Of a stretch of DNA of 64,000 nt, positions 1-45,612 are shown in pieces; the first letter of the stretch is position 1; every line of letters begins with the position of its first letter. A model generated the notes under the pieces. The model was not told the DNA's origin and made no database searches. It was given only the letters and a program-made list of their open reading frames with translations. The position numbers and the translations under genes were made by a program. The DNA is from Ulota crispa. Lineage: Eukaryota > Streptophyta > Bryopsida > Orthotrichales > Orthotrichaceae. The stretch lies in the NCBI GenBank assembly GCA_963920765.1, contig OY987247.1, positions 4,526,001 to 4,590,000 of the forward strand, read 5' to 3'.

Positions 1-44
1 AATAGTCAAACCTGAGTTGACCTAGCTTTTGGAGAGACAGTATA

Positions 45-824
45 AGGTAGGCGCATCCATAAGCGTGGAAATAAGGGTTTTGGAGTAGGTAAAACAATTG
101 ACTAACTTTGAAAAAAATATTGTAAGTTAGGAAATGGAAACAAAAAATATTGGCATAAATTTCAAGGTTCAAACTGCAAGCAATTGTTCACAAAGATTTT
201 TCAAAGTCCAAAATCATTGAAATTGTAGGAACCATGTGTAAGAGATGCTAAAAACAAGGCTTGTTGGTTCTTAACCCCTAAACGACCAAGGTGCTGCTTT
301 GGCCAAAAGAGGGTATTTTTCCCGTATTTAGAGGTGTTGTTGTTTTGGATTTTGTTTGGATATTTGAGGGTTGTGTATTACTATTCGTCTCCACCTTTTG
401 GGATGTTCGGCATGTTTTTGCAATTGTTTTTCTGACTTTGTGAAGCGTTTGTATTGGAGGTGGGTTACGAATATGTAGCTAGAGCGTATTTGCGACTTAC
501 GGATCCGTGTGGTGGATCCCTGAAATGAACACACTCCTGGAGCGCCAAGAGCAAGTGCTCTCGTCTAGTCTCTCAGATTCACAATCCTCTTCAAGAAAAG
601 AACAAAAATCAGATTTGTGTCTCCACAAAATTACAATACAGTTAGGATTTTACGATTCCTTGTGGTTGTTTAAAGGTTAAATAGTGAGATGGGTACTAAA
701 AACTGTCATGGAATCACCCACAACCATCACTTTGTCACCCATAACTATCACTTAAATACCCATAACCACCTTGACTTTGTCAATGACCCCTATGGGGACA
801 TCACGCCCATGGGTGCGGCTACCT
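45..824. repeat. TA-duplicating AGGTAG-end MITE, interrupted
   Basis: The ends read AGGTAGGCGCATCCATAAGCG and, on the other side, CATGGGTGCGGCTACCT. Each end is flanked by TA. The arms match the copy at 25865-26252 in reverse orientation. The copy here is split by a separate element at 275-676. TA duplication and short inverted ends point to a Tc1/mariner-type (Stowaway-like) non-autonomous element; no coding is present. Confidence 0.75.
275..676 (+). mobile_element. TTAA-flanked CCCC-end element nested in the AGGTAG MITE
   Basis: The element begins CCCCTAAACGACCAAGG and ends CCTTGTGGTTGTTTAAAGG, with TTAA on both sides (271-274 and 677-680). The uninterrupted relative at 25865-26252 has a single TTAG at the matching site, so the insertion duplicated four bases. 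A reverse-orientation relative lies at 20758-21144. No transposase is present. Four-base TTAA duplication and CCC ends are what piggyBac-type transposases make; the family assignment is inference. Confidence 0.7.
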
Positions 825-1039
825 TAACTCGTGAAGGACCCTTGGACTTTGTACCAAATATGGTTGCAACTAGTATTCAGAAATTTAAATTAGCTGAAAA
901 TTAAGTGTTACAACCATACATAATGAAAGGTTGAATGATGATAGGTGCATTATTATTTTTTAAAAGCACTCAGAACAACTCAAATACGCCTAGACGTACG
1001 GTCATACATACGGCCGCAAAGAGAGTTGGGGCCCTTCGG

Positions 1040-19895: not shown

Positions 19896-20757
19896 AGCTT
19901 AATACTCTGCTAGCTAGCTCACTCCTGCAACCGAATTTCAACAGACGCGCCGCTCGAGCTTGCACAACACCGCGCTACCTTGAGTTCACGTCGACGCTAC
20001 CTCCATGGCGTACCACAACACCAAAACTTCACCAGATTCTCATACGACGTACGGTCAAATTGGTTAAAAGGCAAAAACCTAAAACGAACGATCACACGCG
20101 AGATTCTTGTATGGAAGGGGAGAATTGTGAGCTGGAGTGTCAGGCGATTCCTTGCTGCTGCAGCATTGGATCAGCTGCGAGGATATATGGAGTGGTACGT
20201 TCCGGCTCGGCAAGCAATCTTTACACAATCGTGAGGGGTAGAAGAGATCGGTATCTGCGGAGTGAATTTGCTTCGGGGAATGAGGTTGGTGTGATTGCGG
20301 AGGTTGCAGTTGTGGCGCCGCGTTTGGAGAGAATTGGGACAGAATCGGGAGAGAAGTGGGATTTGAGGCTGCAGCGCAGTTTTGGGGTGTGTCGCGAGCT
20401 GATGCCGCGAGCGCGGCGACGGGTCGCTCGTGCGCCGTTGGCGCTAGCGTAGATATGGGCTTGAGCCTTGAGGGTCGGTATTCTATATATGGATCTCTAC
20501 GTATGGTATGGCCGTAATGAATTTAGTAATATATCGCATGATGGTATTATATGATTGATGAATAATACCGTTTTGGATTGGATTTGCTTGCTTTTTGGTT
20601 ATGGGCTGGAGGGTGGGAGCGTCTTTTGAGAAGGGGGTATAGGGGACTGGCATGTGTCAAGAGTCGGATTAGGTGATGTACTTGACAGCTCTACCGTACC
20701 CTTGGGGACGGTTCACACCAGTTCTCATGGCCCACGTCCCACTTTAACCCTTAAATG
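19896..20757 (-). promoter_or_regulatory. Probable TPK promoter and leader
   Basis: GC-rich sequence (to about 20450) upstream of the K+ channel start codon. A 130-codon open frame on the plus strand (20060-20452) has odd composition (many Arg, Cys, Ala), no domain and no homology I recognise, so I treat it as leader or promoter sequence. Nothing else was recognised up to the element at 20758. Confidence 0.35.
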
Positions 20758-21144
20758 ACCACAAGGAATTGTAAAATTCTGGCTGTATTGTACAGTGACA
20801 TAAATCTGATTTTCGTTATTTTCTCAACGCGGATAGTGAATCGGAGCGGTTAGACGAGAGCGCTTGCTCTTGGCGCTCCGGCAGCGTGTTCATTTCAAGG
20901 ATCCACCGCAAGGATTCGTAAGATGCAGATACGCTCTAGCTACGTATTTGTAACCCACCTCCAATACAAACGCTTTGCAAAGTTGGAAAAATGATCGCAG
21001 AAACATGCCAAACATTGCAAAAGGTGGAGATGAACAGCAATACACAACCCTCAAAAATCCAAGCAAAATCCAAAACAACAATATTTCTAAATACGGGAAA
21101 AATACCCTATTTTGGCCGCAATGACATGTTGGGTTGTGTAGGGG
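20758..21144 (-). mobile_element. TTAA-family element, reverse copy
   Basis: It is the reverse complement of 275-676 at lower identity. The left end is TTAA then CCCTTAAATGACCACAAGG; the right end GTGTAGGGG is followed by TAAA, one base off TTAA. The shared interior includes GATCCACC...GGATTCGTAAG and CCAATACAAACGCTTTGCAAA. Confidence 0.65.
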
Positions 21145-23028
21145 TAAATCTGAAAAACGTCACACTTAGTCTCAAAATTCAATAAGTTGAGAGCCTAAAG
21201 TTGGGACTTGGCAATTTATATTATGTCCTAAGTTTCCAGTCCCATGATTCACTATATTTTGCCTACATGGTAGCACGTTTCAAAAGTTTTAGTGCCAAGA
21301 AGGTGAAACTTTAGTCACGGTTTTGGGTTGATCAATTTTCAAAATCCAAATTTTAACCCTAATCCCTCCAACATCAGTACCTTAAATGAGATTGTTTATT
21401 TCTTTGTTTGTTTATTTGTCACTTAGAGATCTCCTGGACTGTGTATCTCCTTGTTGTGTGTTTGGTACAATTGGAAAGCTCTCGGCAAGGAGGGGTGCAC
21501 GGGCTTGGTTTTGTGACATTTGGGCATACAATAAGAAATTTATTGAATTTCAAAGTTTTTTCTGGATTAAATATTGAGAAACTACTTTTATTTTTGTTTT
21601 GGTGGTGTTCTTGGTATCATCGGAAAGCTCTTGCTAAGGAAAGGTGCATGGGCTTGGCGTTTGAAATTACTTCTACTTTTACAAACCGTGTGTCCCCTTG
21701 TCACATGCTTGGTATTGTTAGAAAGCTCTTGGCAAGGAAGGGTGCACGGGCTTGGTTGAGCCAACGACACATGGCCACACTAATTTTTGTGTAAATATTC
21801 TATGACTTTCTTTAGTACTTGTCTTTTCCCTAAATAACCCAATGAAGCTAAGATTTTGCATTGAGGTGGGACTTGCATAGATGGAATGGGGGACAAATTA
21901 TGAGTTGTTTCTTAGACTTTGAAGAGTCTTACTAGAAGGAAATCCTATAACTACTGTGGAGTTTTAAAAATAGAAATTTTTATAAATCATAAAAATATCT
22001 ATGATTTGGCGCGCATTTTATCACAAGAACAAAAATTTTGTTGTGGAAATTAACTTCACAAAAAAACTAATGTTTTGAACAACAGGAATATGAATGGGTG
22101 AACATTGTTGTGCATGTTTGAGATTCCTTGCTCCTAGAGATCTTGCTTCTTGCTAGATGTGTGCAAGTTTTTAAGGAGCAATTTCTTTTCACCTATTGTT
22201 GGTGTTAAGTGGACAATAAAATAAATTCCTTGAAGCGAACTTACCAAACTATTTTATTGCCAAATGAACAGCATGTTTTCTTTGACTAAATTTTGTTCAG
22301 GATGAATTACACTATTGTACCTCCTATCCAATTCATACCACCCCCATCGCTTCATTTATCCATCCACCAAATGCAATCTTTGCATGTTGAGATTAAAATG
22401 GCCAATAAAATACTATATGTGGCTTATGTCATTAAAGGACAAAATGTATTCTAATGATTGCAAAAATACCTAACTTTACATTTTGATATTCGAATACGAT
22501 TATTGAAATCGGTCAGAACAAAGATTGTATTTCGAATATAATTTCCAGATTAAATGTCACTAAGAAACATTACTTTTTTAAACTTGAAACATCCTTGTCC
22601 ACAATCTTCGAATTAAATTTTACTTCCAACAAGGGCCATGACTTTGACATTACAAACTCTATATTGCAATTATTCACTATTTGAACTCTTTAATTTTGTC
22701 TACTAGAACATTTATATGACTTGACAAGCTTTCATCCAATTAAATTGCAATCAAATAAATTGTGGTAGTGGGTGATAATTATATGGTTAGTCAAATATAA
22801 AATTTATAACATCTGTTTCAAAAGGTCCCATGCCATTGATGCTATGAGTATTATAAAGAAAAAAAACTTAAAATATCTTCATAAGTGTTCTAAATCTTCT
22901 GCCAATTAAATTTGGAAAAAGAAATGTGTAGAAGACACAATGGAATAGGAAATGGAAGTCTAAACCATCGTAATACCTAGGAGAATTTTGTGCATGACTT
23001 CTCAACCAAAAAAGGGGTGACCCTTTAA
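21145..23028. repeat. Intergenic field with a degenerate triple repeat
   Basis: A phrase (GAAAGCTCT...AAGG...GGTGCACGGGCTTGG) occurs three times, near 21472, 21621 and 21719, in a degenerate direct repeat. The rest is AT-rich without genes. Frames crossing the repeat encode no known domain. Confidence 0.4.
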
Positions 23029-25858: not shown

Positions 25859-25864
25859 GATATA

Positions 25865-26252
25865 AGGTAGTAGCATCCATAAGCGTTGCGTCCCCACGAC
25901 CTGACACTGGCAAGGCTAATCAATAAAAAAACAAATGGTTGTGGGTGATTGAGTGATGGTTATGAGTAATGAAGTGATGGTTGTGGGTGACTAGCATGAG
26001 GTTTGGAGTACCCATCTCACTATCTAAGAACCAACAAGTCTTGTTTTTAGCATCTCTTACACATGGTTCCTGCAATTTCAGTGATTTTGGATTTTGAAAA
26101 ATCTTTTTGAACAAATGCTTGCAATTGAAACCTTGAAATTGATGCCAATATTTTTGATTTCCATTTCCTATCTTACAATATTTTTTCAAAGTTAGTCAAT
26201 TGTTTTACCTACTCCAAAACCTTTATTTCCACGCTTATGGGTGCGCCTACCT
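25865..26252. repeat. AGGTAG-end MITE, reverse and uninterrupted copy
   Basis: TA-flanked. In reverse orientation it matches 45-824 without the inner element, so it shows the empty site (TTAG within GGTTCTTAGATAGTGAG). Confidence 0.75.
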
Positions 26253-27499
26253 TAGATGGTTCATTGCATGTGACGTGTCTGATTATATATGGATGAAAGT
26301 CACGCAAGGATGAAAGTCACGTAAGGATGAAAGCCGCGTATGCCTGAAAAACACATGTGGATGAAAAAATGAACATGTTAGAAATCCCGCATCTGGAATT
26401 CTGGATGGAAAGATTGCGTATGGAAGAAAAAATTACGTATGGATGGAAAGATTGCATATGGATGAAAATCACGTACAGATGGGAAGAGGAAAATCCGTCG
26501 TCGTCACTGCCCCGGCGACTGAGAAATAGCTTAGAAATGGTGTGCAGGGGCGTTTGGTTTGCTGAGGAGCTTGGTATCTTATCTCAGACTCGGTGGTCTC
26601 GGTTTCCTGGAGCGACAACAATCTTTGGATGTCCCTGGACGACCGAATCGCGAGCAAACCCTCGTCTCGTGAGAATATTTCAATCAAATTGGCGGAGATT
26701 GTAGTTATGATCGAAGAAACAAATTAGGGTTTGTGGTTGGTAGCTCGGGACGGCGTTCTGATGCAAACTCTTCGTCTTCTTCTTCTGCAATGACGATGCT
26801 GTTACCATAAAGTACCTGTAATTTCAAAGAAATCGAAGAATTGGCCGATTGGTGAGTTCCAGCCATTTTTTTGACGAAGTTTTGAGGTCTTGTATCGCAC
26901 AGGTTTTCATAATTCTGCTTTTTCTTATTCGTGGGTTTTTGGGAGGGTTAGGGTTTGGCAGCAGAGCGGGAGACGACAATGCTTGGTGACAATATGCTTG
27001 ACACGTGGACCTCTTCTGCTAGAGACAATTAATTGATCCAATTTCAATACAATCACTGTTACTCAAATGCAGTCAACAATATCGGGTTACTATCCAGCCA
27101 AATTTGGCTTCTTTTTTGAAGAACATTCTGCGAAGAGTTTGGAGTGATTCTTCTTGTTGGTAAACCCTGAAAATAGCCTTGAAAAGCTTAACTTCGGCTC
27201 ATCCATAGTATTGGAATAGGAAATGGGAATCTACCTTCATTAGGGGGTTCAAACATAAAATCTGGTGTACGAGTTTCTCACCTCACAGGATCCCCGCACA
27301 CACCAGTGAATTTGCAATTAGGGTTTTGTGCATAGGTCGGACGATTAAGGTTTTGTACACAAGTAGGGAGTTAGGGTTTTGTGCATAAATAGGATAATTG
27401 GGGTTTTGTGCACAAGTAGGGGGTCGGAGCGTGTGAGACACCAAATAGGATGGGCCGCGCAAAATTGAGTTTTTGAAGTTCACTCCTACAAGGTTAGGA
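26253..27499. repeat. Intergenic field with short degenerate repeats
   Basis: A GGATGAAAGTCACG motif repeats irregularly over 26285-26480. An AGGGTTTTGTGCATAAGTAGG-like phrase repeats over 27310-27425. No gene is supported. Confidence 0.4.
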
Positions 27500-30740: not shown

Positions 30741-33700
30741 TGGAGCGTTTCTGGGTGCATCCGAAGACTTTATCATTGGGCGATGCCCATCATATGAATC
30801 CCACGCACAACCAATCTGGAAGCCATGCCTACCGGTAGTATTATATTTTGCTCCTGTTGTGAAATTTAATTCATCCTTGGCTTAGTATATCACCAAGCAG
30901 CAGGCAGATATAATTTACTCATGTCATTGCTTTTGATCTGTTTAATTGTTTTTCCAAAAACAGTCAGTATTCTAATTTTGAATTGATTAGAGGTGTGTGA
31001 ATGAAACAGGTGTTTCAGCAGCAGTGGAAATGCAAACTTCAATGGACCATCAAAAGGTGACAAGGTATTTCTTCATACATTCAAGGATGAGGAGACGGTG
31101 GTTAGACAGGGTAGAGCAGTGGATGTGGTACAGTGTTTAGAACAAGGAGGCGTTCAAGTTAGTTACTCTGATTACTTGAAAATGCTGAAAAGATGTATCG
31201 AGGTTAATGACTTGGTGGCAGGCAGGCTGGTGCACAAGCATATTATCCAACATCGCATATTGCCAGACCAATACACAGTCAATGCATTGGTTAACATGTA
31301 CATACAGTGTGGAAGTTTGGAAGAAGCACGGGAAGCGTTTGACCGTTTGGAAAGAACTGTGCATTCATGGAACGCCATTATTGTAGGTTATGCCCAGGAT
31401 GGCCATGTTGAAAGATCCTTCAGTTTACTTCGGCAGATGCAGCAGGAGGGCCTTAATCCAGATAGAACTACTTTCATGACCTTTCTGAATACTTGCAAAA
31501 CTCCAGGCGCCTTGGAGTGGGGCAGGGAAGTTCATGTCCAAGCTACGAAAGCTGGACTTCTCTCTGACGTCAGAGTGAGCAACTGTGTAATGAATATGTA
31601 TGCGAAGTGTGGCAGTGTTGAGGAAGCACGAAAAGTTTTTGATGGAATGGAGGGAAAGACCGTTGTTTCTTGGACTATGATGATTGGGGGTTATGCTGAA
31701 AGTGGCCGTAGTCATGCTGCTTTTGATATGTTTCAGAGAATGCAGCAGGACGGTGTAGAGCCGAACCTGATTACATACATGTGCGTTTTGAATGCCTTCT
31801 CGACTCCCGCAGCCTTGGAGTGGGGCAAAGCAGTTCATGCTCACATAACCAGAGCTGGACACGAATCGAACACAGTAGTTGGAACTGCCCTGGTGAAGAT
31901 GTACGCCAAATGTGGCAGCTACAAGGATTGTCGTAAAGTCTTTGAAAAGTTGGTTAATCGAGATCTTATTGCGTGGAACACGATGATTGGAGGACTGGCG
32001 GAAGGGGGCAGTTGGGGAGAGGCTTCTGAAGTTTATCACCAGATGCAAAGAGAAGGGATAACGCCAAACAAAGGTACGTACGTGAGTGTCATAAATGCTT
32101 GCGACAATTCAGCAGCCCTGCACTGGGGCAAGGAAATTCATTCTCGGGTGGTCAAAGCCGGTTTCATGTCTGATGTGAGCGTAGCAAACGCCCTCATTAG
32201 CATGTATGCAAGATGCGGAAGCATTAAAGATGCGCGTCTTGTTTTTGATAAAATGGTGAGAAGAGATGTCATTTCCTGGACTGCAATGATTGGAGGCCTT
32301 GCCAAGAGTGATCTGAGCACAGAAGCCTGGGCAGTATATCAGGAGATGCAACAAGCAGGTGTGGAACCAAACAGGGTGACCTATATGAGCATCTTGGATG
32401 CCTGTTCCAGTCCAGCAGCGTTGGACTGGGGGAAGAGAGTGCATCGTCAAATCATGGACGCTGGCCTGGCCGCGGATACTCAGGTGGGAAATACCCTGGT
32501 GAATATGTATTCCGCGTGTGGCAGTGTCCTGGATGCTCGTCAAGTGTTCGACAGAATGAGCAAGCGGGATGTTGTGACCTGCAACGCTATGATTGGCGGA
32601 TATGCAGGGCATAATCAAGGGAAGGAGGCGCTGAAACTATTGTATAGGATGGAGGGAGAAGGCCTGCAGCCTGACAAAGTCACCTATATAAACATGCTGA
32701 GTGCATGTGCAAACGCGGGATCTCTAGAGTGGGCGGGGGAGATGCATTCGCTAGCGGCGAAGGATGGCTGGCTGTCGGACACGAGCGTTGCGAACGCGCT
32801 CGTGAGTACGTACGCCAAGTGTGGGAGCATCGGGGATGCGCAACGGGTGTTCGAGCAAATGAGCAAGCGCAATGTCATCTCGTGGAACGCCATCATCGGT
32901 GGGCTTGCGCTGCATGGACGAGGGCCCGAGGCCGTGCATCTGTTCCATACAATGAAACGGGAAGGGGTCAAGCCAGACGCGGTGACATTCGTCAGCGTCC
33001 TCTCAGCGTGCAGCCACGCAGGCCTTTTGGAAGAAGGCCGCCGCATCTTTTCCAGCATGGCTCAAGACTTTGGCGTGCCACCAACAATTGAGCACTACGG
33101 GTGCATGGTGGACCTGCTGGGCCGTGCCGGGCAAGTCGATGAAGCAGAAGCGCTCATGGAGAGGATGCCCTGGCAAGCGAACACCAAGATTCTGGGAGCC
33201 TTGCTGGGTGCTTGTCGAAGTCACGGCAACATTCTCGTGGCGGAGCGCGCGGCGGAATGCAGTCTGAAGCTGGACCCCGACAATGCCGCTGTGTACGTGG
33301 CGCTGGCCCATCTGTATGCATCCGCGGGGATGTGGGAGTCGGCAACGAAGACGAGGCAAGCCAATTTTGGGCTAGCAATCTTATTACAAAATGTGGGCAA
33401 TTTAAAAATTTAAACCATGAGTGATTGGTTAACTCATAAATGCCACTAACTTGATTCAAAGTAAAGCTTCAGTTTAAACCACTTTCTGCATGTACCCCTC
33501 TCTCCACTCTATGCATGTACCCCTTTCTCCCCTATAAAAGGACAAACAGGTCACTTGAAGTTGCACCATGACACTCTCTCTCAACCAATCTCTATTCTTG
33601 GTTATGTATTCTATTCTTGGTTATATTCTTCTATATATAGAAAATGTTGTGTTCTATTATTTATAATGATGCCCAATAATGATAACATTATCCCACAGGC

Positions 33701-34140
33701 GACTGATGGAGCAGCGAGGCATCACCAAGGAGCCTGGTCGAAGCTGGATTGCAGTGGATGGCCGTGTGCATTCCTTTGTGGCGGCAGATCGGTCCCATGC
33801 ACAGGCCGACGCCATCTATGCGGAGCTGGACCGGTTAATCCTGCAGATGAGGAGGCACGGGTATGCCCCGGACACACGGCTGGTGCTGCACGACGTGGCC
33901 CATCGCCAGAAGGAAGAGGCCGTGTGTCACCACAGTGAGAAGCTGGCCATTGCGTATGGGCTGCTCAGCACGCCCCCCGGGTCCCCCATTCGCATCTTCA
34001 AAAACCTTCGTGTTTGTGCCGACTGCCATTCCGCCTCCAAGTTCATCTCTCGCATCGTCGGGCGTGACATCGTGGCCCGGGACGCTACCCGGTTTCATCA
34101 TTTCCGGGATGGAGTCTGCTCTTGTGGAGACTACTGGTAA
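30707..34140 (+). CDS. PLS-DYW pentatricopeptide protein, organelle C-to-U editing factor
   Basis: A sequence-specific RNA-binding protein whose DYW domain deaminates cytidine in organelle transcripts. Exons: 30707-30834, 31010-33355 and 33699-34140, giving 971 residues if translation starts at ATG 30707; the 5' end is uncertain. About sixteen 35-residue PPR repeats (WNAMIGGY and VNMYAKCGS patterns) lead into the E region ([12 protein letters not shown]) and [10 protein letters not shown]. The DYW domain is complete: catalytic HSE, CADC, HHF and final CSCGDYW. The last intron (33356-33698) has a GC donor, AG|GCAAGC; only this border rebuilds [16 protein letters not shown]. Closest in style to moss editing factors (established family; exact orthologue not assigned). 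Its first exon overlaps the end of the FAD synthetase frame. Confidence 0.93.
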
Positions 34141-40729: not shown

Positions 40730-42304
40730 GGCTAAGAACACGGCCTTTCTCAATCAGCCAGGCCTTCAGTTGGACAAGTCGCTGGAATGTGTGGGCCTGT
40801 GGTGATGAACAAGTGCCGATGTCAGCTCCTACTCTAATTTGGAAGGAAAAACATGGTTACCATAAAGAAAGATCAATTTTATTGTATTTGGTTATGATCA
40901 CTTTAACATTAAAATCTCTATAACATTAAAATATCTCTGTAGGAAGAATTTTGAAACTTTTTGGAGATTTTTGTTAGGAAGAAAGATGTGCTTATGGATG
41001 TTTCCTACATATCCATGCAATCAAATCTCAAAAATTTACCACCAATCTTTTTTAATCAATTATCATATAAAATGGTGAATTTCACCTTCAATAATTCACT
41101 AAAAATAGGATTTTGATTTTTTGAAACTCGAATATGGTATGCTTGATTAGGATTGTGTAAGAATTTAAGCTTAGTGATACAAGATACAAAAAGATCAATT
41201 GCATTCTATAAAATGCTAAGTCCCTTGAACAGTAGAATGGGGTGGACATAAACTTATTCAACCCCACCGTACAATACACAAAACATGGGCGTCAAAGTTC
41301 TTCTGTGATTTTCTTTCTAAATATGTTCCCTAAAGGTCCAAGTGTTTGTTTAATAGCCACTTGAGAACTTGGGCAGGGTCATATGGAGTCAATTTTTATT
41401 GGATGTTCTTGAAGTTGTTACACAAGGTGTAAATATGTATCCCCCAATTAGAAATATAGTTTTTTCCCCAATCAGATGCTTAGTTTGAAAGTTATGCTAC
41501 CCAAATGAATTTGGGCAGCTTGGGCAGTTTGGGCATATTTGGAGAATCTTATACTAAAACTCTCATCAACTTTTGAAATTTGGCAAGTATGTAACTAAAA
41601 AGAAATGGTGTACAATTGTCAAAAGAATGAATCAATTGAGGTCTCACATCTCATTCTAAAGGGAGTCATTCTTTGTTAACTATGTTTGGGTAGTTTCAAG
41701 AAAAAATGTTTTTTTCTAACTTTAGGGCCTATTATCTTTCAATCTATAAATCTAAAACTCTTAAATTTTTTTTCAAACATTCCAAATGTTTGTCTTTAAC
41801 TTCTCACCATTTAGATTTCAAATAAAAGATGTCCTCAGTGCACAAGAAATCATGAAAGAATGTCTAATGTATTGCCAACTCACTTAACCTCATAGTGCAA
41901 GGCAACTTAGAGTAAGCTAGAGTCATAATTTGCTCTTGAAACTTTTCATGAGTGCACCTAATAAGATTTAGATATCAGTGGAAAAAAAACTTTAATTCAT
42001 GCTAACCAAAAATTTGACTCCAAAGAGGCTTAAAGTGTGTTGACCCATTTGGGTAGGGACGAAAAACTTTTTTGTAAATTTCAAATGCTATAATCTTTCA
42101 ATTTGTGTGGTCAAATGGGCTAAAATTTTTTGCACTCAATACTAAAATGTATTACTATAGTTTTTTTACGGTTGAAGTTTCAAAAATAAGTTTCAAATTA
42201 TCAACATATCGAAAAAACACAAATTTTGGTAGTTTCTTGCGGAAACACCCCTTGGGCCTTTAGGGGTTGAGTTACATAAGAGTCATTCATTCTCTTATAA
42301 GCTA
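40730..42304. other. AT-rich intergenic stretch
   Basis: No gene seen. A CCCCTTGGGCCTTTAGGGG phrase near 42248 looks like another decayed end of the TTAA family. Confidence 0.35.
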
Positions 42305-44791: not shown

Positions 44792-45612
44792 CCCCTAAAG
44801 GACCACAAGGACAAACGTCTCTGCTTATACACGGGGGGTTGTGTATCCACAGTGACCCCCTAGTGCTTAACCCTTAAATGATGAGGAGGACAAAAAATGT
44901 TCGCCAAAAATACTTGTGGTGCGACCATTCCGCGGTAACCAGCCCGTCCTTTAAGGGTTAACCCCTAAATGCCCAAGGCACCCAATTCGGGTGTTTGCAA
45001 AACTTTGAAGATGAATTAAATTTTACCAGATCACTTTATTTGATATTTTCTTTTGAACACAAGTTTGTTTTGAAGTCTATTTTCAGTATTAGAAATCTGA
45101 TTTAAAAAATGAATATTTATGATTTTTCTATTCAAGATTTTGTACAAGGGTGTCCATTGCAATCTTGAGTTTTCTAGTGTTGGAAGATCTTGAAAATGAG
45201 CCTCAATTACACTAGAGCTTGGAGAAAAATTTGCATTAGAAATCCATTTAAAAAAAATACAAGAGTAGATTTTGAAAGCCATAAATTGGTTGAGGTTAAA
45301 CATTTAATGACCTTAAACCTCATATTTTTTTGATGATCAACTTTTTAGATTTGACATGTGAAATGAGGATTAGAAGACTTCAAGTCACTTTTGCAGTTTT
45401 AACACCCTCATGTCCTAACATTACAATCTTTCAAACTATATGTGATATTGTTGTGTTTTCTTTTTCCATGTAATCTCTAATATGTCAAGCTTAAATTTGT
45501 ACGGTTATAATTTTTTAAAAATTAATGAGATTTATGAAAAGGTTGGTTGATTGTTCACTTTCCTAAAAATGCCAAGAAGTTCAGAAAGCCTTCGGCATTT
45601 AGGGGTTAAGGG
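44792..45612. mobile_element. TTAA-family element A, itself interrupted
   Basis: It begins CCCCTAAAGGACCACAAGG after TTAA (44788-44791) and is followed by TTAA at 45613-45616. Uninterrupted MITE copies have a single TTAA at this site (GTTTATTAATAATCATC). A further internal CTTAACCCTTAAATGATG at 44869 hints at another end. Confidence 0.65.
44962..45605. mobile_element. TTAA-family element B, 644 bp, nested in element A
   Basis: The inverted ends CCCCTAAATGCCCAAGGC and GCCTTCGGCATTTAGGGG are flanked by TTAA on both sides (44958-44961, 45606-45609). The body has a diverged reverse relative at 23029-23600. No transposase frame is visible. Confidence 0.7.

Follow-up and report, generated by a model that had tools for sequence, protein, structure and literature searches.

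A short TTAA-flanked element in a land-plant genome as a very probable non-autonomous piggyBac-type transposon

The 402-bp element at positions 275-676 of the analysed stretch of DNA (the window, 64,000 nucleotides) is very probably a non-autonomous element of the piggyBac type, i.e. a MITE, that was mobilised by a transposase of the piggyBac family. This reading follows from three observations taken together, namely the duplication of TTAA at the insertion site, a shared class of terminal inverted repeats (TIRs), and the presence in the same genome of elements that have such ends and carry the transposase domain PF13843. The element is non-coding and lies inserted within an abundant repeat of ~395 bp, here referred to as the host repeat. 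The features of the insertion, of the host repeat and of a second family copy are as follows.

43..826, + strand: host repeat, ~395 bp when empty, split by the element; 93% (43-273) and 82% (677-768) identity to 25861-26255; right border CTACCTTA (819-826) by inspection
271..274, no strand: left copy of the TTAA target-site duplication, from the sequence and the empty-site pattern count
275..676, + strand: 402-bp element, very probably a non-autonomous piggyBac-type element (MITE); 39 further scored genome copies, 83-88% identical; too short for a transposase
275..287, + strand: left TIR CCCCTAAACGACC, from the alignment of 40 copies
663..676, + strand: right TIR, TGGTTGTTTAAAGG in the window copy and most commonly TGGTCGTTTAAGGG among the 40 copies
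677..680, no strand: right copy of the TTAA target-site duplication, from the sequence and the empty-site pattern count
20744..21148, - strand: further window copy of the 402-bp family (84% identity across 376 bp), with TTAA at 20744-20747 and TTTA (in element orientation) at 21145-21148
25861..26255, - strand: uninterrupted copy of the host repeat, with TTAG at the insertion point (26024-26027)

The initial annotation had described TTAA borders on both sides of 275-676 and a single TTAG at the same point of a related repeat, and had concluded that four bases were duplicated. The borders are indeed present, at 271-274 and 677-680, and so is the TTAG at 26024-26027 (CTAA on the + strand). The right end of the element had been given as TTTAGGGG and has to be corrected, as the window copy ends in ...TTTAAAGG; across the 40 copies, ...TTTAAGGG is the most frequent right end. 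The host repeat consists of 43-273 plus 677-826, and its aligned flanks join exactly at the insertion point of 25861-26255. Since this lone comparison shows TTAG, it would by itself still allow a 3-bp TTA duplication with a neighbouring substitution. The whole genome (274.8 Mb in 157 contigs) was therefore considered: a search for the joined empty site, allowing any fourth base and at most 3 mismatches, returned 805+805 places (1,610), and 0+0 in the reversed control. Of the 100 empty sites listed, which are free of other mismatches and come from C1 or the beginning of C2, 98 have TTAA and 2 have TTAG; a 4-bp target-site duplication, TTAA, is therefore the best reading. The four-base duplication is thus borne out by the empty sites, with TTAG as a minority variant. 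In the window, TTAA occurs at 0.53% of the positions. With its ~395 bp, the host repeat is also a short element of very high abundance; its ends (TAAGGTAGGCGCACCCATAAGCG) are inverted, one side being imperfect.

From 139 first-look candidates, 40 copies of the 402-bp family (the window copy and 39 others) were scored; they are the best-scoring against the window copy, i.e. a non-random sample, and are spread over contigs C1-C10. With the copy boundaries fixed by the terminal repeats, exact TTAA is found on the left in 34 of the 40 copies, on the right in 34 and on both sides in 29, so that the tally of flanks that had been proposed as a check came out in favour of TTAA. The flanking four bases agree with each other in 30 of the 40 copies, one of these pairs being TTAG/TTAG, and beyond the four duplicated bases the commonest base does not exceed 18 of 40 in any flank column. 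The 11 copies in which exact TTAA is missing on one or both sides include cases of decayed ends or of shifts due to the boundary rule (L023, L025, L039, L041). The commonest ends of the family, CCCCTAAACGACC and TGGTCGTTTAAGGG, both yield TIRs that begin with CC, the reverse complement of the latter being CCCTTAAACGACC. The copies differ pairwise by 13.6% on average (from 8.4 to 19.3%), transitions outnumber transversions by a mean factor of 4.8, and given this mean divergence the burst of the family does not look recent.

The TIR class is found in very large numbers throughout the genome. The exact 12-mer TTAACCCCTAAA occurs 15,477+15,495 times (30,972) versus 41+36 (77) in the reversed control, and TTAACCCCTAAACGACC, at up to 2 mismatches, 16,077+16,027 times versus 26+39. 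These ~31,000 exact ends would suggest an order of 15,000 short passengers. Exact CCCCTAAASGACCAAG ends number 1,833+1,830 (3,663), and are directly preceded by TTAA in 1,556+1,521 instances (3,077; 84%); among the 100 listed, 99 represent the G variant. Thirty loci with the common exact 17-mer end were fetched (four of which belong to one tandem array), and size classes of ~240, 400, 700 and 930 bp were found behind that end; at four of the 30 loci (L049, L060, L067, L068) a second end was not found within 1.5 kb. The ~930-bp MITE family has the same TIR class as the 402-bp family. The TIR core CCCTAAA resembles the plant telomere repeat. Three further elements in the window are relevant here.

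41328..42270, + strand: decayed copy of the ~930-bp MITE group, 72% identity to the L054 copy; TTGA after the right end ...CCTTTAGGGG, left end without clear TTAA
44788..44961, + strand: TTAA-bounded element of 174 bp, the ends being CCCCTAAAGGAC and GTCCTTTAAGGG
44958..45609, + strand: 652-bp TTAA-bounded element that has the TTAA at 44958-44961 in common with its 174-bp neighbour

The first 21 bases of the 652-bp element (TTAACCCCTAAATGCCCAAGG, TTAA included) are the same as the end located downstream of a piggyBac transposase domain, that of L107; a longer similarity between this element and L107 was not detected at E 1e-3.

Abutting elements can use one TTAA jointly (GGGGTTAACCCC), as at 44958-44961 of the window. 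Exact back-to-back 20-bp junctions with one TTAA occur 335 times in the genome, and at 81 places the ends lie 1-30 bp apart. A hand estimate of the number of junctions expected from random TTAA insertion, based on the TTAA frequency of 0.53% in the window only and on ~15,500 elements, amounts to ~160; the resulting ~2-fold excess is too rough to claim preferential insertion beside existing ends. Another arrangement is seen at L073 (C5:19474772 onward), where a 25-bp unit (TTAACCCCTAAACGACCACCATATA) is repeated in tandem at a MITE end, in four exact copies and one that is near-exact; the unit consists of TTAA plus the terminal repeat, i.e. the end has been multiplied.

Transposase sequences of the piggyBac family are abundant in the same genome. 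PF13843 has at least 120 matches (116 of 528 candidates scored), the best at E 1.3e-73 and 254.5 bits, and the matches are located on all ten large contigs (C1-C10); none of the 14 control genomes, which are prokaryotes, has a match. Internal stops are present in 110 of 120 matches and absent from 10, and we therefore make no claim of present activity: judged by their reading frames, the more than 100 transposase sequences appear to be mostly broken. In two open stretches PF13843 is the sole Pfam match at E <= 0.001. One of these, L088, is similar to the solved structures 6x67 (E 1.9e-19) and 9c0f, i.e. piggyBat (E 6.1e-16); the similarity extends across the first two catalytic motifs for 6x67/6x68 and along nearly the whole domain for 9c0f. 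We take 6x67/6x68 to be the Trichoplusia ni piggyBac (the 6x67 record is labelled Transposase). The catalytic DDD triad, within the motifs DE.M, DNFF and VD..DQ, is complete in 5 of 12 distinct loci (L083, L086, L087, L090, L091). The set is incomplete in the other seven: L088 is open but carries Asn where the third motif should have an Asp, the match of L089 stops ahead of that motif, and L079, L081, L082, L084 and L085 are affected by stops, frame or pattern. A cysteine-rich segment after the domain, as is described for PiggyBac-related transposases (PMC8086355), was recognised, by pattern only, in two of six loci (L086, L087). Some transposase matches come in pairs of equal or near-equal score and opposite orientation, ~14-110 kb apart (C2:36765124/36779670, C7:18203169/18223004, C10:676128/785346), suggesting inverted duplications of whole segments.

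The ends of the elements can be connected to these transposases in several ways. Among six large transposase loci, a convincing TIR pair was found at L086 only and at none of the other five; the L086 transposase lies inside an element of 5,027 bp that is bounded by TTAACCCCTCATCGCCAA and TTGGCAATGAAGGGTTAA. L103 and L113 together make up a second element with both ends, of ~5,565 bp (summed) and with TTAACCCTTTAACG at each end. For transposase domains other than those of the six large loci, 20 downstream stretches of ~2 kb each were inspected: 16 of them contain an end of the form GGGTTAA (15) or AGGTTAA (1, L109) at 1.47-2.05 kb, and no end was found in the expected range in the remaining four (L092, L094, L104, L106). 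The regular expression by which ends were found also matched five GGGTTAG sites elsewhere in the 20 stretches. Two of the 16 stretches with a GGGTTAA or AGGTTAA end, L097 (C1) and L099 (C2), are 91% identical over 1.72 kb and cease to be similar exactly at GGGGTTAA.

A link between MITEs and a transposase is seen at L111. The end downstream of its transposase, CCTTGGTCCTTTAGGGGTTAA, belongs to a very common TIR class in the genome; over the last 363 bp, this end shares 87% identity with a ~930-bp MITE (L063), and another MITE (L061) matches the end of the L111 element over 626 bp at 71%. Such matches might also be produced by a MITE nested in a dead transposase, which the sequence comparison makes unlikely: in L095, a second transposase locus, the coding part (72%) and the last 446 bp (75%) are both collinear with L111, and the MITE-like ends are therefore most simply attributed to the transposase element itself. 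A search of 3.6 kb upstream did not reveal the left end of the L111/L112 element. The parent of the 402-bp family itself was sought in a comparison of 70 element pieces, 40 of which are copies of this family, with 36 transposase-related stretches. Three of the 40 copies match L107 only, over 50-59 bp (E 2e-5 to 8e-5, at a cut-off of E 1e-3), and among the 36 stretches there is no long copy that combines the family ends with a transposase. The second check that had been put forward, i.e. a DDD transposase in a longer copy with the same ends, has a positive outcome at the level of the TIR class, but these stretches contained no direct parent of the 402-bp family.

The initial annotation had left two options, a piggyBac-related transposase or an unrelated plant transposase that had converged on TTAA. 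The former is strongly supported by the abundance of PF13843, the similarity to 6x67 and 9c0f, and the CC(C)/GG(G) ends beside TTAA. The TIRs of piggyBac elements begin with 5'-CC(Y), and their transposition proceeds via hairpin intermediates and TTAA overhangs. We infer that a transposase of this kind acted on the 402-bp family by that known chemistry. The family would then represent a short non-coding passenger with TIRs of ~13 bp starting with CCCC, for which a DDD transposase of the piggyBac family would be supplied in trans by longer elements of the same genome, and which would be inserted into TTAA by a cut-and-paste mechanism, the TTAA being duplicated on insertion.

Besides transposable elements, the window contains a DYW-ending PPR gene (open reading frames 31098-33413 and 33679-34140). 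Elsewhere, exon-like pieces above the cut-off were recorded on C7 for PF10274, a gene of motile cilia. The same contig has a weak ChlL-like piece (C7:4302013-4302537) that scores 268.9 bits at a family cut-off of 345.15, by a profile that also matches all 14 controls; it lies inside an open frame reported as 3,579 aa long, and may represent inserted plastid DNA or a masked stretch. Taken with the size of the genome, these genes and gene pieces point to a host that is a seedless land plant and probably a bryophyte.

TTAA is duplicated by more than one superfamily, Sola3 being an example, so that the element might have been moved by Sola3 or Kolobok with the piggyBac transposases of the genome as mere bystanders. 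For Kolobok, TTAA duplication is indeed described, but with termini of the form 5'-RR...YY-3' (PMC9587614), whereas those of the 402-bp family begin with CC and end with GG; on this description of the termini Kolobok is rejected. The absence of a direct parent of the 402-bp family from the 36 stretches would agree with a mover of another superfamily; the transposase elements that were examined, however, have the same CCC-TTAA form of end and do carry PF13843, and we regard the bystander scenario as improbable.

Far less weight still is given to two other explanations. A plant element of the PIF/Harbinger type (Tourist), with a 3-bp TTA or TAA duplication next to a chance A or T, would be compatible with the single TTAG comparison, but such a duplication is rejected in view of the 4-bp TTAA of the empty host repeats (98 of the 100 listed), in agreement with the 29 of 40 copies that have TTAA on both sides, and its probability is close to nil. 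Equally negligible is contamination of the assembly by animal, fungal or algal DNA. The thought is suggested by the fact that piggyBac is best known from animals, but element and transposase copies are spread over each of the ten large contigs (C1-C10), the repeat that surrounds the window copy has 1,610 empty-site places in the same genome, and the window contig carries plant-type genes such as the DYW-ending PPR gene; it is the spread over C1-C10 and the nesting in the genome's own repeat by which contamination is rejected.

Non-autonomous piggyBac thus remains the preferred reading, and can be compared with known systems. The termini of the T. ni piggyBac start with CCC, as do those of the 402-bp family, and the transposases are similar (E 1.9e-19, 6x67/6x68). 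The plant elements differ from it in that the sequence is diverged, the host is a land plant and most copies contain stops; the two elements measured are ~5.0 and 5.6 kb long. The preference for a TTAA target is likewise common to both (PMC8086355). The likeness to piggyBat (9c0f), drawn from the transposase alone, extends along nearly the whole domain at E 6.1e-16, and the host differs, being Myotis lucifugus in the case of piggyBat (PMC11707139). Transposons of the piggyBac group are known to give rise to MITEs, according to a paper on Blepharisma, in which the 8,000-copy MITE is itself derived from Pogo and no relative of the 402-bp family (PMC9942856). Judged by description, the family resembles animal piggyBac-derived MITEs, which are also short non-coding passengers but in a host of another kingdom. 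The Tourist and Stowaway MITEs of plants are likewise short non-coding TIR elements of high copy number; their transposases are of the PIF/Harbinger or Tc1/mariner type, and Stowaway duplicates 2 bp (TA). Tourist is described with a 3-bp duplication (TAA/TTA), unlike the 4-bp TTAA of the 402-bp family (PMC10004981).

In the plant literature, five TIR superfamilies had been described according to a paper from 2008 (PMC2528002), and six and seven, respectively, are counted by two reviews from the text of which piggyBac is absent (PMC9033089, PMC10741241). Nevertheless, piggyBac-like elements are stated to occur in fungi, plants and metazoans (PMC8086355), a repeat table for ferns has 1,230 PiggyBac entries amounting to 0.00% (PMC6890710), and a MITE review names PiggyBac among the angiosperm MITE superfamilies (PMC10004981). 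In rice, markers have been excised by means of the T. ni piggyBac, which, in the account of a 2017 paper, was by then untried in Physcomitrella (PMC5505980). Among the openly licensed PMC papers listed, no title or opening of an abstract dealt with piggyBac transposases in mosses; the text matches in PMC10619864 concern 'piggybacking', those in PMC5505980 the T. ni tool, and the one in PMC4938662 is a literature reference. Mention of piggyBac-like elements in plants is thus not new; what is notable is the scale, and the presence of genuine transposases in a land plant.

At a higher level, we lean slightly towards the view that piggyBac has long been resident in a seedless land plant, probably a moss or some other bryophyte, as a large and diversified radiation with more than 100 transposase copies in several diverged lineages and ~15,000 short passengers, which would form a main DNA-transposon class of the lineage, overlooked where annotation skips TTAA elements, and which would have been kept from early land-plant ancestors or acquired horizontally. 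Annotation that is restricted to the reviewed superfamilies would misfile or miss TTAA elements. If the above holds true, a native plant piggyBac system would have practical interest, vertical retention and horizontal transfer could be told apart by testing across bryophytes, and the range usually ascribed to the superfamily would have to be extended to a land-plant genome rich in genuine piggyBac transposases and their MITEs.
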